NCBI GenBank assembly: GCA_023667265.1
Contig: JAMPAJ010000001.1
Location: 489,962 to 534,257 of the forward strand
Origin: Alistipes sp.
Lineage (GTDB): Bacteria > Bacillota > Clostridia > Oscillospirales > Ruminococcaceae
Length of the DNA stretch: 44,296 nucleotides
Reading direction: 5' to 3'
This document shows positions 26,374-32,775 of the stretch, piece after piece. Numbering within the stretch: position 1 is the stretch's first letter; each line of letters starts with the position of its first letter. Under the pieces are notes generated by a model. That model searched no databases and was not told where the DNA came from. It saw nothing but the letters and a program-made list of their open reading frames with translations. A program made the translations under genes and the position numbers.

Positions 26374-26449
26374 GGGGCATTAGCGCAGTTGGGAGCGCAT
26401 CACACTGGCAGTGTGGGGGTCAGGGGTTCAAGTCCCCTATGCTCCACCA
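26374..26449 (+). tRNA. tRNA-Ala (anticodon GGC)
   Basis: A complete cloverleaf. The acceptor stem GGGGCAT/ATGCTCC contains the G3-U70 pair that marks alanine tRNAs. The D arm is GCGC/GCGC, the anticodon loop CTGGCAG has GGC at 26407-26409, and the T arm AGGGG/CCCCT has a TTCAAGT loop. CCA is encoded at 26447-26449. It has its own promoter and terminator. AT-rich accessory DNA begins just downstream, so its 3' end may be an integration target, though no second copy of that end is in the window. Confidence 0.98.
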
Positions 26450-26454
26450 TATTC

Positions 26455-26492
26455 GCACCTAACGAATGATACAATCGTTGGGTGCATTTTTA
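26455..26492 (+). terminator. Terminator of the tRNA-Ala gene
   Basis: GCACCTAACGA (26455-26465) pairs with TCGTTGGGTGC (26475-26485), with one G-U pair, and is followed by T residues. Confidence 0.87.
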
Positions 26493-26544
26493 TTGTAAAA
26501 AAGCAGAGAAATAAGGCATTTTCGGCTTATCATAAAACTATAAC

Positions 26545-26579
26545 AGCCACAGTGAGGTAAAAATCACTGTGGCTTTTTT
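26545..26579 (+). terminator. Terminator-like hairpin without an adjacent gene
   Basis: AGCCACAGTGA (26545-26555) pairs perfectly with TCACTGTGGCT (26564-26574), followed by TTTTT. No gene ends next to it, so it may be what is left of a deleted gene, or the far end of the accessory element. Confidence 0.65.
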
Positions 26580-26592
26580 CTTTTTGTAGTGT

Positions 26593-26647
26593 AAAATAAA
26601 ACGTTAGCAAGTAATCGTTTTATTTTTAAAGGCTAACGTTTTATTTT
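26593..26647. repeat. 16-bp perfect inverted repeat with internal direct repeats
   Basis: AAAATAAAACGTTAGC (26593-26608) is the exact reverse complement of GCTAACGTTTTATTTT (26632-26647). The same CGTTTTATTTTT word recurs about every 20 bases from 26616 on. It lies in the tRNA-to-element gap and could be a junction or recombinase site. Confidence 0.6.
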
Positions 26648-27033
26648 TGAGGCTATCGTTTTCTGATTGAAAACGGCGTTGAACTGTACCCCGAAAATGG
26701 GTTATAAATTCTATAAAGCAGGAATGAGTGAAAATTCGTCTGGATCACTTTGTTCGATTACAAAGGTTGTTTTTGTATTATCAAAAAAGTAATCGGGATC
26801 AGATGTCTCTATTGAGCGTGTTTCCGAGCTATTATCATGTGGCAGCTGTCTCCATTTGCATTAGCTTTCCACAAGATATAGCACGGCATTTATTAATTTT
26901 CTCTTTTTCCATTGTTTATCTGTAAAAATTGGTACAGCTTCTTAAATTATATGCATTTGTTATGTTTATATTTTTGATCTATTATTAATAATAATTTATT
27001 GTATTAAAAAGTGCTTAGAAAGTGAATTGTAAA
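26648..27033. other. Gap without a supported gene
   Basis: This stretch is AT-rich. A 65-codon rightward frame (26728-26925) has no ribosome site and an unremarkable composition. ACTGTACC near 26686 and GGTACAGCT near 26930 form a loose inverted pair, which could be the ends of a decayed insertion sequence, but no transposase remnant was recognised. Confidence 0.4.
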
Positions 27034-29589: not shown

Positions 29590-29653
29590 ACTTTACCAAA
29601 AAAGTCGAATTATGTCAAGCGATTTGGCACAAGGTGCAAATTTCAGGCAAATC
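29590..29653 (-). promoter_or_regulatory. Left outward promoter with upstream operator
   Basis: Read leftward: TTGACA (complement of 29613-29618), 17-bp spacer, TAAAGT (complement of 29590-29595). Upstream lies a conserved block with the palindrome-like TTTGCACCTTGTGCCAAA (complement of 29622-29639) and a TTTGCC word. The 64 bp match the right copy at 32473-32536 in inverted orientation at 53 positions; 37 of the 40 bases through TTGAC are identical. It drives the three-gene operon. Confidence 0.8.
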
Positions 29654-29663
29654 ATGACGAAAA

Positions 29664-29702
29664 ACCTCGGTATTAGACTGGAAGACAGTCTAATACCGAG
29701 GT
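29664..29702 (-). terminator. Terminator of the XRE regulator gene
   Basis: A perfect 16-bp stem, ACCTCGGTATTAGACT (29664-29679) with AGTCTAATACCGAGGT (29687-29702) and a 7-base loop, followed on the minus strand by TTTTT. It insulates the regulator from the outward promoter next to it. Confidence 0.9.
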
Positions 29703-29708
29703 ATAACT

Positions 29709-30098
29709 TTATTTTTTCCCTTTCGAATTATCCTCAGATTTCAAAATAAGAAGAATAGTATCAAATAAATACTTCTTATCCTTCTGACTGAAACCTGAAA
29801 TAACATTAACCATACTGCCCAAGGACATATTAGAAGCCAGTTTTTCATTGAGTTTCCGATATTCAACCTTATTCTGACATCTTCCAAGCAGATAATCCAC
29901 CGGAACATGGAAATAATCAGCGAATTTTATCAGCATAGCAGCACCGGGAGGAGTAAGCCCTTGCTCATAATGCGCTAAAGTGCTCTCACTGATATTGAAT
30001 ATTTTAGCAAATTCTTTCTGTGTAAAACCGCTGTTTTTTCTTAGTTCAGCTAATGTGCTGCCGATGATGTTATTCAGTGATATCGAATCTGATTTCAT
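29709..30098 (-). CDS. XRE-family transcriptional regulator
   Basis: A 129-aa DNA-binding protein. A classic helix-turn-helix spans residues about 12-66 (LRKNSGFTQKEFAKIFNI, then SESTLAHYEQGLTPP and DYFHVPVDYLLG). The C-terminal 50 residues are helical and may dimerise. GAGCGAGGAC precedes the ATG. It is divergent from the response-regulator gene with 267 bp between, and it ends at a strong terminator beside the left outward promoter. It may repress or activate the outward promoters or the divergent promoter; this is inference. Confidence 0.92.
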   Translation of the reverse strand: MKSDSISLNNIIGSTLAELRKNSGFTQKEFAKIFNISESTLAHYEQGLTPPGAAMLIKFADYFHVPVDYLLGRCQNKVEYRKLNEKLASNMSLGSMVNVISGFSQKDKKYLFDTILLILKSEDNSKGKK

Positions 30099-30218
30099 GT
30101 CCTCGCTCCCAGTAATGTGATGATACCTAATTATAATATAAAATACAGTTTTATTGTTGGAATCAGCATTATTTTTGATGATTAAGCATAAATATGTAGA
30201 TTAACAATGAGTATTTAT

Positions 30219-30248
30219 ACTGTTAAGCGTAGTATTTATACAGTTAGA
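30219..30248 (+). promoter_or_regulatory. Direct-repeat binding site of LytTR/AgrA type
   Basis: ACTGTTAAG (30219-30227) and ACAGTTAGA (30240-30248) repeat with 12 bases between (21 bp start to start), inside a longer repeat beginning AGTATTTATAC. AgrA-type LytTR proteins bind paired sites close to ACAGTTAAG-N12-ACAGTTAGG. The site lies between the XRE gene and the LytTR regulator gene, so it may be self-control of the operon. Confidence 0.75.
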
Positions 30249-30286
30249 GAAACTAATGATAAACACGATAAAATTGAAAGAAGCTC

Positions 30287-30315
30287 TTGCAAATTGCGCC
30301 AAATAAAGATATAAT
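30287..30315 (+). promoter_or_regulatory. Promoter of the response regulator-kinase operon
   Basis: TTGCAA (30287-30292), 17-bp spacer, TATAAT (30310-30315). The ribosome site GGGAG is at 30352-30356. The paired LytTR-type site ends 38 bp before the -35. A leftward -10 candidate for the XRE gene (TATAAT, complement of 30130-30135) has no clear -35. Confidence 0.72.
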
Positions 30316-30365
30316 AGGAGATAAGTTCAATGCTTGCCGAACAAATCAAATGGGAGATGATATGA

Positions 30366-31097
30366 ATGCGAATCGCAGTATGTGATGATAATACTGTTAT
30401 GCTGTCAAAATTGAAGGGAATAATTCATGGTGCTTTCTCTGTTTATACAGATGCGTTTGAGATATTGACTTATTCTTCCGGAACATTGTTGCTAAATGCA
30501 CACAAACAGGAAGCCTTTCAAATAATATTTTTAGATATTGATATGCCAAAAGTATCCGGATTTGATGTAGCAAAAACACTTCGTGATGATTTTTCAAATT
30601 GCTTTATCATTTTCATAACCAGTCATTCCGAACTGGTATATGAGAGTATGGATTTCCAGCCGTTTCACTTTATTCAAAAGAATTGTGAGATTTCAATAGA
30701 AGAGAGTATGTCCAGAATAGTGAAAAAACTGATGAAACACATGAAGCAATATGAAAAAGTAATTCTGGAAGATAAGGAATCCGGCAGACATGCTGTCTAT
30801 ATTCATGATATCATGTACATAGAAAGTGAGAAGCATTATTTAAATTACTATATCGCCGGAAGAAATGCTTCTATTAAGAAAAGAGGAAGCATAAAGGAAT
30901 GCGAAGAAAAGTATGAAAGATATGATTTTGTGAAAATACATAAGAGATACTTGATTAATCTTAGATATTTAGCGGATTTTGATGGAAGCAAAAATGAAGT
31001 AACAATCAGTAAAATTGACAAAAAACTAACCATGAGCAAGAATTACAAGAAAAATGTTGATGAGAGATATACGCTGTACTTGAGGTCGATATTATGA
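30366..31097 (+). CDS. LytTR-family response regulator, AgrA-like
   Basis: A 243-aa protein. The receiver domain (1-125) has the acidic pair in VCDDN, the phosphorylated Asp57 in FLDIDMPKVSG and the conserved Thr/Ser in FITSHSE. The LytTR DNA-binding domain (140-240) shows YIESEKHYLNYYI and VKIHKRYLINLRYL. The ATG has GGGAG nine bases upstream. It overlaps the kinase gene by four bases (ATGA), so the pair is coupled. The direct repeat at 30219-30248 is its likely target. Confidence 0.93.
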   Translation: MRIAVCDDNTVMLSKLKGIIHGAFSVYTDAFEILTYSSGTLLLNAHKQEAFQIIFLDIDMPKVSGFDVAKTLRDDFSNCFIIFITSHSELVYESMDFQPFHFIQKNCEISIEESMSRIVKKLMKHMKQYEKVILEDKESGRHAVYIHDIMYIESEKHYLNYYIAGRNASIKKRGSIKECEEKYERYDFVKIHKRYLINLRYLADFDGSKNEVTISKIDKKLTMSKNYKKNVDERYTLYLRSIL

Positions 31098-32413
31098 GTG
31101 TACTGTGGGATTTATTTGAAATCACCGTCAATTTCTTTCAAGGCTTTATCATGATATTTTTCGCTTATGCTTACCTTGGCGACAAGAACAACAGAAAATT
31201 CTTGAAGAGCGGTGGAGTCTTGTTTGGTATTGCATTAGCAGCTGCAATCTCCATACTGGATTATTATATGGTATTTGAGAATTTTTATGCGCTTCTGTAT
31301 ATTGTAATCATCTTTTGGTATGCTGCGGCTAGTTTAGAAGGTACATGGCTAAAAAAGGCGTATGCATCTGTTCTGCCAGTTCTGATTGTACTTGTTCCAT
31401 CTGCATTAATTTCAAATTTTACAGCGTTTCTTTTCAAAACAAGCTTGTATGATATATGCTCGAAAAAAACTATTGATCGGTTTATCACAGTTATTGTTGT
31501 ACAGTTTGCGATAATTTACATTATGGCTTTTCTATTGAAAATACTGAAAAAGAATGAAAACGGAAAAAATTCGCTGGCAGTTACAGAATGGGCTTTAATA
31601 TCTTCAGTTCTTGTGATTAGTATTATTATCGGAGCATTTCTGGATATGTTGTCATTAGAGGGGATATCTCATGGAAGCAGAAGGTATTTGGTGTTTTCTC
31701 TGGCTGGAATCATATTGATCAATATTGTAGTTTGTTACTTAGTTGTAGACTTGGGAAGAAAGAATACGGCAATGCGTGAAAATGAGCTGCTTCGTATTCA
31801 GCAGGAGTACAACAAACAGTATGTAGAAAATGCAGATACAGAATACGATTTGATACGAAAAATGCGACATGATTTTAGAGACAACTATTCTGCATTGTAC
31901 ACATTGCTTGCTGATGGAAATGTAAAGTCAGCAATGCAGCATATTGAAAAGCATTTGGATAAGCTAGTGAAAACAGAAACATTTGTACATACTGAAAATG
32001 ATATTGTAAATGCAGTGATCAACAGTAAATTGTCAGCTGCGAGATCATTTGGAATAGAAGCGACATGTCTGTCTGTTTCGGCTTTTCATGAAGTTGATGA
32101 TATTGATCTGTGCAGACTGTTGTCCAATATGCTGGAGAATGCGATAACGGCCTGTAATTCCAGTCAAAGAGGGGACAAGCAGATTTATTTGAAAATTAGT
32201 TCAGATGAGTACAAGTATATATTCAATCTGAAAAATACAATCGATGATTCTGTTCTGAAAAAGAATCCGGCTTTGAAGACAACCAAGAAGGAGAAAAGTT
32301 CGCATGGGTACGGTACAAAGATCATACGTGATATTGCAAGAAAATATCACGGGAAGTGTGATTTTTATGAGGAGGATGGTTTTTTCTGCTGTAGTGTGAC
32401 GCTAAGAAGATGA
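31094..32413 (+). CDS. GHKL sensor histidine kinase, AgrC-like
   Basis: A 439-aa membrane kinase. About six transmembrane segments fill residues 5-225, the layout of peptide-pheromone receptors. A coiled linker follows, then the phosphoacceptor RKMRHDFRDN (His259), the N-box segment LLSNMLENAITAC, and the ATP-lid motif HGYGTKII. These place it in the HPK10/AgrC class. No agrB or agrD gene is next to it, so the signal is unknown. A strong terminator follows at 32426. Confidence 0.92.
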   Translation: MSVLWDLFEITVNFFQGFIMIFFAYAYLGDKNNRKFLKSGGVLFGIALAAAISILDYYMVFENFYALLYIVIIFWYAAASLEGTWLKKAYASVLPVLIVLVPSALISNFTAFLFKTSLYDICSKKTIDRFITVIVVQFAIIYIMAFLLKILKKNENGKNSLAVTEWALISSVLVISIIIGAFLDMLSLEGISHGSRRYLVFSLAGIILINIVVCYLVVDLGRKNTAMRENELLRIQQEYNKQYVENADTEYDLIRKMRHDFRDNYSALYTLLADGNVKSAMQHIEKHLDKLVKTETFVHTENDIVNAVINSKLSAARSFGIEATCLSVSAFHEVDDIDLCRLLSNMLENAITACNSSQRGDKQIYLKISSDEYKYIFNLKNTIDDSVLKKNPALKTTKKEKSSHGYGTKIIRDIARKYHGKCDFYEEDGFFCCSVTLRR

Positions 32414-32425
32414 GAATGAATTTTG

Positions 32426-32466
32426 GAGTGATATTGTACTTGAATGGTGCGATATCACTCTTTCTT
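32426..32466 (+). terminator. Terminator of the regulator-kinase operon
   Basis: GAGTGATAT (32426-32434) pairs with ATATCACTC (32452-32460), followed by TTTCTTT. It lies just before the right outward promoter, mirroring the left side of the island. Confidence 0.85.
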
Positions 32467-32472
32467 TGTCCT

Positions 32473-32536
32473 GATTTGCCTGATTTTTGCACCTTGTGCC
32501 AAAACGCTTGACTTTTTTTGTCGAGTTTGGTAAAGT
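32473..32536 (+). promoter_or_regulatory. Right outward promoter with upstream operator
   Basis: TTGACT (32508-32513), 17-bp spacer, TAAAGT (32531-32536), preceded by the same block as the left copy: GATTTGCC at 32473-32480 and TTTGCACCTTGTGCCAAA at 32486-32503. TTTGC recurs after 11 bp (32475 and 32486). The -10 and operator match the left copy while the -10/-35 spacer differs, which fits selection for regulated promoters more than transposon ends. Confidence 0.8.
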
Positions 32537-32775
32537 GAAAATGTTGGATGCATATGTAGTTAGGACAAGAGATGTTGTAGGCGCAGTTTAAATTCCTTTC
32601 ATTTTATGCTGGATATTTTTTGTAAAGTATGGTATAATGAAGATGATTCAATCAGGAAAACCACTGTGTTATGGCAACGGATTACTATATGGCTATAGCA
32701 CATGATTTATATAACTAAAGTGTTATGTGCTTGAAACAGATGAAAAATATAAACTGATTTGATGAGGTAAACAGT
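32537..32775 (+). other. Long leader between the outward promoter and the broken glycosyltransferase gene
   Basis: This 239-bp stretch holds no supported gene. A 16-codon frame from ATG 32541 begins at the predicted transcription start and has no ribosome site. An extended -10, TGGTATAAT at 32630-32638, may be a second promoter without a clear -35. AGCACAT near 32697 and ATGTGCT near 32725 can pair weakly. Confidence 0.45.

Follow-up and report, generated by a model that had tools for sequence, protein, structure and literature searches.

The stretch of DNA analysed here, hereafter the window, comprises 44,296 nucleotides (nt) of a genome deposited as Alistipes sp. (NCBI GenBank assembly GCA_023667265.1, contig JAMPAJ010000001.1, positions 489,962 to 534,257 of the forward strand). 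It contains a regulatory module of three genes, encoding an XRE-family regulator, an AgrA-like LytTR response regulator and an AgrC-like GHKL histidine kinase, between two inverted promoter blocks that point outward to different genes on each side (Table 1). The genome has 2.57 Mb and is rated 96.3% complete, and the module lies on a contig of 1.49 Mb. The three regulator genes had been called in an initial annotation made from the sequence alone, and Pfam confirms these calls. The N-terminus of the kinase presents six hydrophobic segments within residues 37–218, which hydropathy predicts to be membrane segments, and the RHD and NMLEN motifs are invariant across five kinase relatives; we take the AgrC-type core to be HPK10. 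The kinase thus joins a membrane N-terminus to a GHKL core, as expected of AgrC, and the regulator joins a receiver to a LytTR domain, as expected of AgrA. The same annotation had the regulator genes closed by terminators, and strong hairpins do end both the XRE and the kinase genes; the 66-nt stretches that contain them fold at −29.4 and −25.2 kcal/mol, respectively.

Table 1. Features of the module and of its two arms, in window coordinates (aa, amino acids; bp, base pairs).
Feature	Position	Strand	Evidence or detail
Left operon gene 3, 417 aa	27034..28287	-	Pfam OmpA 1.2e-7; lipoprotein-like N-terminus (by eye)
Left operon gene 2, 264 aa	28305..29099	-	four predicted membrane segments; relative in L170 (3.1e-21)
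Left operon gene 1, 147 aa	29074..29517	-	distant relative in L170 (6.5e-5)
Left outward promoter and operator	29590..29653	-	half-sites TGCCTGAAA 29649-29641 and TGCCAAATC 29629-29621
Left promoter boxes	-35 TTGACA 29618-29613; -10 TAAAGT 29595-29590	-	
Terminator-like hairpin, end of XRE gene	29664..29702	-	upstream of left promoter
XRE-family regulator gene	29709..30098	-	Pfam HTH_3 9.4e-14; between agrA and left operator
Two near-identical 16-mers, 21 bp apart	30210..30246	.	repeat finding; between XRE and agrA
AgrA-like LytTR response regulator	30366..31097	+	Pfam LytTR 9.8e-16, Response_reg 2e-14
AgrC-like GHKL histidine kinase	31094..32413	+	Pfam HATPase_c_5 3.6e-22
Terminator-like hairpin, end of kinase gene	32426..32467	+	upstream of right promoter
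Right outward promoter and operator	32473..32536	+	half-sites TGCCTGATT 32477-32485 and TGCCAAAAC 32497-32505
Right promoter boxes	-35 TTGACT 32508-32513; -10 TAAAGT 32531-32536	+	
Right-arm leader	32537..32775	+	similar, until ~32680, to leaders before Syd-like genes in G348
First right-arm gene, family 2 glycosyltransferase, 189 aa	32776..33345	+	Pfam Glycos_transf_2 9.1e-26

The two inverted 64-bp blocks first described at 29590–29653 and 32473–32536 are present and identical at 53 of 64 positions, while the best 64-bp match between resampled 260-bp flanks reaches 30–36 of 64 (20 first-order resamples). Repeat finding extends the inverted pair to 75 nt at 81% identity. The pattern GCACCTTGTGCCAAAWCGCTTGAC, which covers the operator and the −35 box, occurs twice in the window with up to three mismatches and in none of 100 shuffles, and the 64-bp block has two matches in the whole window genome (E ≤ 0.001). 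Eight of the eleven differences between the blocks had been placed in the spacer; seven lie inside the 17-bp spacer, and the remaining one of these eight falls on the final position of the −35 box.

The operator itself was redefined. The best-conserved unit is not the one written in the initial annotation but an imperfect direct repeat, TGCCtgAAa-N11-TGCCaaAa in the window, with a 20-bp offset and directly upstream of the −35 box. A search of 396 genomes of the family with the 64-bp block gave matches in 10, including the window genome, some of them weak and only promoter-like. Compared by eye, the matches follow the order TGCC[TC][AG]AAA, 11 bp, TGCCAAAA, a few bases and then TTGAC. The direct-repeat pattern with up to two mismatches was found at 14 sites in eight of the 396 genomes, and the reversed pattern, run as a control on the same genomes, gave none among the matches listed; a scan of genome contigs for the exact pattern gave no match. 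Column conservation was obtained from 26 operators of the TGCC class, hand-chosen from the search outputs. T1, G2, T21, G22, C23 and C24 are kept in all of them, followed by A7 (96%), C4 and A27 (92% each) and C3 (88%), and the half-sites and the −35 box are the best-conserved columns. Known LytTR sites are 9-base direct repeats, 11–13 bp apart, upstream of the −35 box, according to the available part of PMC6193735. Because this is the documented form of a LytTR site, and because exact or near-exact repeats occur in many other lineages, we favour the direct-repeat reading, and the site is a predicted LytTR/AgrA-type operator.

The search for the kinase at E ≤ 1e-60 revealed 32 kinases in 27 of the 396 genomes, and genus searches found it in 2 of 16 genomes (both already known) and in 11 of 43. 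The family-wide test covers 51 modules, which include the window, both further agr loci of its genome, one phage and one short phage contig; the distant relatives L050–L052 were left out, and the modules are not all independent, as one locus is counted from both of its kinases and L149 is almost the same as L150. Each module was scored by its best combination of direct repeat and promoter within 500 bp behind the kinase, or outward beyond agrA, with p values from 200 first-order resamples and without correction for testing many modules. A value of p ≤ 0.01 was reached behind the kinase in 21 of 42 scored modules (the other nine have no candidate promoter or not enough sequence), on the other side of agrA in 13 of 41, and on either side in 32 of the 51. 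The repeat offset among these p ≤ 0.01 cases is 20 in 30 and 21 in 4. The 9-bp AgrA repeats with an offset of about 20–21 bp upstream of promoters, which are typical of agr, are found in the relatives; the window repeat itself agrees at 6 of 9 positions. The half-sites vary by lineage: beyond the TGCC.AA class, L128 and L145 present ACTTCACAA, L115 presents CACGTCAAA, and the half-site CAAACTTCA of L148–L150 is the ACTTCACAA string in a shifted register. It appears that the operators change between lineages in parallel with the regulator.

The position of the site relative to the kinase is also conserved. A kinase-alignment search of named genomes gave 13 relatives, and all ten with at least 35% identity carry an operator site (up to six mismatches) within about 300 bp 3′ of the kinase gene, which was found in none of the three relatives at 24–29% identity. 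Five of the ten close relatives are genomes of the pattern search (G005, G178, G348, G368 and G162). This bears on an alternative, raised for transposon ends already in the initial annotation, in which the two blocks serve as ends in recombination or transposition and their likeness to promoters is incidental. Such ends would suit the inversion of the blocks around a 2.8-kb segment, the nearby tRNA gene and the cargo that differs between two genera. The reading is nevertheless very improbable, given a site beside the kinase in ten of ten close relatives and two copies in the window genome. Elsewhere, sites stand beside the same genes one at a time or as direct instead of inverted copies, and it is the half-sites and the −35 box that are best conserved. 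Each window block also resembles the same side of the related module in G348: the left promoter and the start of its leader recur in G348:C24 with a spacer agreement of 14/17, and the right promoter recurs in G348:C42 with 17/17, against 10/17 between the window's own sides. Since each spacer agrees better with the corresponding side of G348, the two window sides are not being homogenised or inverted.

The two ends were compared in 37 modules with both flanks, 30 of which have candidate promoters on both sides. Over 32 operator positions, left and right agree at 30 in the window, 29 in L128, 27 in L018, 24 in L023 and in L108, and 23 in L144, versus means of about 12–16 for comparisons across modules. 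L047, with 19 of 32, is borderline, as 18% of cross-module comparisons are as high, and it shows TGC-type half-sites on both sides; G348, split over two contigs, is an eighth two-sided case. L120 (18 of 32, rank about 5%) was rejected as a two-sided module, its best pair showing no repeats. A left/right match across lineages with differing half-sites is what one shared regulator predicts, and the earlier proposal of two outward promoters under one regulator gains support, at the level of sequence, from these matching operators.

That regulator is likely the LytTR protein rather than the XRE protein, because modules without a detectable XRE gene carry the same kind of operator. We give only a small chance to the XRE protein as the common controller of both outward promoters, even though an XRE gene lies between agrA and the left operator, and adjoins the latter, in all eight two-sided modules. 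Some modules that lack a matched pair have an XRE gene too (L019, L119, L130 and L146, for example). A profile of the window XRE (E < 1) found none within 3 kb in L115, L116, L127, L129, L147 and L148, among others, although a diverged XRE could escape it, and strong operators of the same kind stand behind the kinase in modules with this result. XRE proteins usually bind palindromes, and the separate 16-mer pair between XRE and agrA is a possible XRE site. The direct repeats, on the other hand, follow the LytTR pattern as given in the available part of PMC6193735.

The genes behind the site indicate which kind of LytTR system this is. In six of the ten close relatives AgrB (PF04647, E 6e-40 to 3e-35) is encoded there, namely in L041, L042, L044, L045 (behind the last site), L046 and L047, and AgrD-like peptides with a CGAAS core were found in L042, L044, L045 and L046. 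The window pair is therefore read as an AgrC/AgrA-like receiver, an identity that the initial annotation did not contain.

Then, we propose, with a probability of roughly 0.8, that the window module is the receiver half of an agr system, built as a two-sided cassette with outward promoters fired by AgrA. An extracellular cyclic peptide would be sensed by the AgrC-like kinase, which would phosphorylate the AgrA-like regulator; phosphorylated AgrA would bind the direct repeats upstream of the −35 boxes at both terminal promoters, and the left operon (29517–27034) and the right arm (from ~32543) would be switched on together. The hairpins would stop read-through from the regulator genes. The window genome would only listen, the peptide coming from others or from an undetected partner. 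The proposal draws on what can be read in the sequence, that is, the anatomy of the locus, the operator type, its spacing in related modules, the match of left and right, and cargo that differs in a relative.

Several results weigh against this proposal. By the repeat test alone the window operators reach p values of 0.20 and 0.19, and the window is one of 13 of the 51 modules with p ≤ 0.05 on neither side; recognisable TGCC-class sites are still present in four others of these 13 (L019, L022, L041 and L044). Because the window's own repeat has drifted, the case for its operator rests on conservation in the relatives. Over the 26 operators, the near-palindrome GCAC-N3-GTGC within TTTGCACCTTGTGCCAAA keeps 76% of its four pairs, with A15–T21 at 92%, and the central TGCA is conserved at 81–92% per column. 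The palindrome is not favoured as the main operator unit, as most of its columns overlap or neighbour the half-sites, the pair C16–G20 is kept in only 11 of the 26 operators (42%) and other lineages present exact direct repeats of a different sequence; the central TGCA may provide an additional contact. Both promoters probably allow some basal expression even when AgrA is not involved, because they have good −35 boxes and 17-bp spacers.

The distribution of agrB belongs to the same side of the balance. In four of the ten close relatives, the place behind the site is taken by an exporter (L040), a second LytTR–GHKL pair (L043) or other genes (L048 and L049). When the called genes of the 51 modules were compared with an AgrB profile, 15 modules had agrB behind the kinase (at up to 1.5 kb), 6 had it on the other side and 30 had it in neither place. 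The resulting 21 of 51 should be read as a minimum, because agrB is known to be present in L055 as well and lies about 7 kb further on in L017. No cognate agrBD was found beside the window module. The two agrB genes of the window genome, one in C42 and one in C22, adjoin other, distant kinases (23–24% identical). At both of these loci, agrB and an agrD-like gene are combined with separate repeats behind the respective kinase, which is a point in favour of the proposal. Because both agrB genes adjoin other kinases, the window module looks receiver-only, and because linked agrBD genes were not found, it is filed as a receiver-only relative and not as a complete agr locus. Its agr partner may lie in the unassembled part of the genome. 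Modules without adjoining agrB are common in the 51-module set, in which the window is not exceptional, and the nearest relative that has a full kinase, G005 (85%), carries agrB only on another contig. Elsewhere in the window genome, a looser operator match with a good promoter (G000:C22:210701, L063 7702) lies about 240 bp upstream of a gene for a secreted-looking protein and is a possible further AgrA target.

The initial annotation had also described a sensor module serving different genes on its two sides, which is borne out by the cargo of the relatives. The parts of the module on the G348 contigs share about 89–92% DNA identity with the window, and the two genomes are of different genera by their labels. 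The homology stops near the start of the first gene in the left arm (29487) and near 32680 in the right arm. The left arm of G348 has genes of 264, 282 and 338 aa, the second matching PDC-S31. Its right arm includes a Syd/SUKH-2 gene, another of this kind, 54% identical to the first and accompanied by an RTX/HNH toxin-like gene, and agrB with an agrD-like gene; each of these right-arm sets follows its own promoter copy, and the second copy is preceded by a duplicated kinase tail. In G348:C42 (L017 15642–15300), a fragment of the kinase C-terminus (residues 342–439) is duplicated together with the terminator region, promoter and leader before the second Syd-like/toxin-like cargo. Because of this duplicated fragment, the arrangement suggests that new cargo joins the module through recombination at its kinase end.

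The arms of other relatives differ again. In G005 the left side encodes a 182-aa protein and an FGE-sulfatase protein of AAA/NACHT-like type, whose NACHT match falls slightly short of the cut-off, and the right side a C39 ABC exporter with HlyD. G241 presents a dGTPase-like gene on the left and agrB with a gene for an AgrD-like peptide without cysteine on the right. In G180 agrB and an agrD-like gene are on the left, with an Avs5-like SIR2 gene some 670 bp further along, and the right arm encodes a secreted-looking 134-aa protein and ABC transporter-like genes (by eye). The first left gene of G162 (L023) encodes a sigma-70 region 4 protein; in Ruminococcus bicirculans 80/3 (L047) a second XRE gene comes first and a sigma-70 region 4 protein third, and genes for PemK/MazF and a serine recombinase lie farther out. 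The left arm of G410 encodes large secreted-looking proteins. In G178 (L022 10607–12599, kinase-oriented coordinates), the site behind the kinase fronts a second LytTR–GHKL pair, possibly a regulatory cascade. Eight hand-chosen arm proteins were compared with PADLOC, which returned Avs5 (8.2e-62), dGTPase (3.5e-72) and PDC-S31 (2.2e-13), the other arms not being defence-like. The dGTPase match may represent a housekeeping-type enzyme, and no enrichment of the arms in defence genes is claimed from these eight chosen proteins.

In the window, the left arm is a three-gene operon. Its first protein (147 aa) has no Pfam or PADLOC family at E ≤ 0.001, and the operon was rejected as a known defence system, as none of the three proteins has a PADLOC match at that threshold. 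The 417-aa protein has no match at E ≤ 0.01 among PDB sequences, and its single-sequence structure model was set aside (mean predicted local distance difference test score 35.5). Among the 395 other genomes in the family sample, four encode a relative of this protein, which in three of the four adjoins a hydrophobic protein of similar size plus a small gene; all three genes of the operon are detectably similar only in the closest relative, L170. The operons of L170, L171 and L172 consist of genes for proteins of ~206–233 aa, 116–159 aa, 252–303 aa (hydrophobic) and 390–437 aa (OmpA-type, lipoprotein-like), of which the window has a three-gene version. No agrB, LytTR or AgrC-like gene was found within 12.8–14 kb around the four relatives of the 417-aa protein.

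Regarding the right arm, the leader similarity to G348 may reflect recent shared ancestry, and a search for structural RNA in it with Rfam (E ≤ 1) gave none, the hits being a tRNA-Ala and four matches far below gathering scores, all outside the leader. A possible open reading frame of 16 codons (32541–32591) begins very close to where the right transcript is predicted to start, and its frame is kept in two G348 copies (alignment judged by eye). The 189-aa glycosyltransferase is probably truncated, as an open stretch in another frame follows its gene. This possible decay of the right arm, together with a leader that precedes Syd-like genes in G348 and the many modules with a significant operator on one side only, would agree with a module in which one arm works and the other promoter is a relic of earlier cargo. 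We consider this possible but doubtful, since by comparison with the left side the right operator, −35 and −10 are intact.

Among the closest known systems is the agr locus of Staphylococcus aureus, in which AgrA drives the divergent promoters P2 and P3 from direct repeats (available part of PMC4227749). Both have an AgrC-like kinase and a LytTR AgrA-like regulator, and agrB, often with an agrD-like gene, stands beside some relatives of the window module. In S. aureus, P2 and P3 lie back to back in one intergenic region, while here the promoters lie at the outer ends of the receiver genes. The agrAC unit is moreover apart from agrBD and includes an XRE gene, its side cargo varies, the window lacks agrBD, and no RNAIII-like RNA was identified here. 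The LytTR regulatory systems (LRS) HdrRM and BrsRM of Streptococcus mutans share the 9-bp direct repeats 11–13 bp apart upstream of the −35 box and have bacteriocin targets, and pair the LytTR regulator with a membrane protein that is not a kinase, as far as the available text of PMC6193735 goes. The window pair was rejected as an LRS, its regulator having a Response_reg domain and its partner being a GHKL kinase, which makes it a two-component system.

Carriage of agr genes by mobile DNA is known from phage phiCDHM1 (available part of PMC3901668); the window module differs from that case in being two-sided and on a 1.49-Mb contig. The kinase gave 51 matches in phage records, two of which were examined, and 14 in plasmid records, none over 80% of the kinase length. 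Ruminococcus phage NatCom_29429 (Heliusvirales; L152, PV036441.1, 7335–10350) encodes AgrB, a LytTR protein, an AgrC-like kinase and, at the place of agrD, a 46-aa product, all four annotated as hypothetical. The phage also has an outward operator TTCGTGCCA-N12-TTCGTGCCA that resembles the window half-site. Scans of viral contigs with the kinase alignment and with the 417-aa and 264-aa proteins confirmed no relative, and the 264-aa protein had no match in phage records. The 417-aa protein had one match in plasmid records, a 22% identical OmpA-family protein among TPR genes of a Rhodococcus plasmid.

Two-component signalling by agr is itself known; new, as far as seen, are the operator class and the design of the cassette, with two ends, exchanged cargo and an XRE gene. 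No prior description of such a cassette was found among the open-access titles and abstract openings listed, and an earlier one elsewhere is possible. Signalling by agr appears here as a modular receiver cassette whose targets are readable from sequence. Quorum control of phage defence has reported precedents in CBASS of Vibrio cholerae (PMC10653837) and in agr and CRISPR of S. aureus (PMC12462963). More tentatively, the module may represent a portable two-sided quorum-sensing socket, in which XRE–agrA–agrC keeps its outward AgrA promoters and gains cargo at its ends, copies without agrBD listen to the peptide of neighbours, and one population-density signal would govern functions as unrelated as phage defence, toxin-immunity pairs, exporters and mobile-element genes. 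The left operon of the window (147, 264 and 417 aa) would then be a candidate for competition or defence under density control. If true, anti-phage genes, interbacterial toxins and genes of mobile elements would be tied to population density. Receivers without an adjoining sender, common in the 51-module set, raise the question of eavesdropping between bacteria, and the related module in R. bicirculans 80/3 belongs to a named strain with a complete chromosome sequence.

A comparison of insertion sites in seven relatives of the genus gave only scattered gene-level and tRNA matches, and island boundaries were not found. The left cargo ends near a tRNA-Ala in the window (26374–26697) and near a tRNA-Leu in G348 (L038 4416–4749). 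Both tRNAs are followed by the same 250-bp segment, 87% identical between the two genomes, which in the window contains two AACGTTTTATTTTT-like repeats 21 bp apart. This segment is possibly an island end located next to different tRNA genes.

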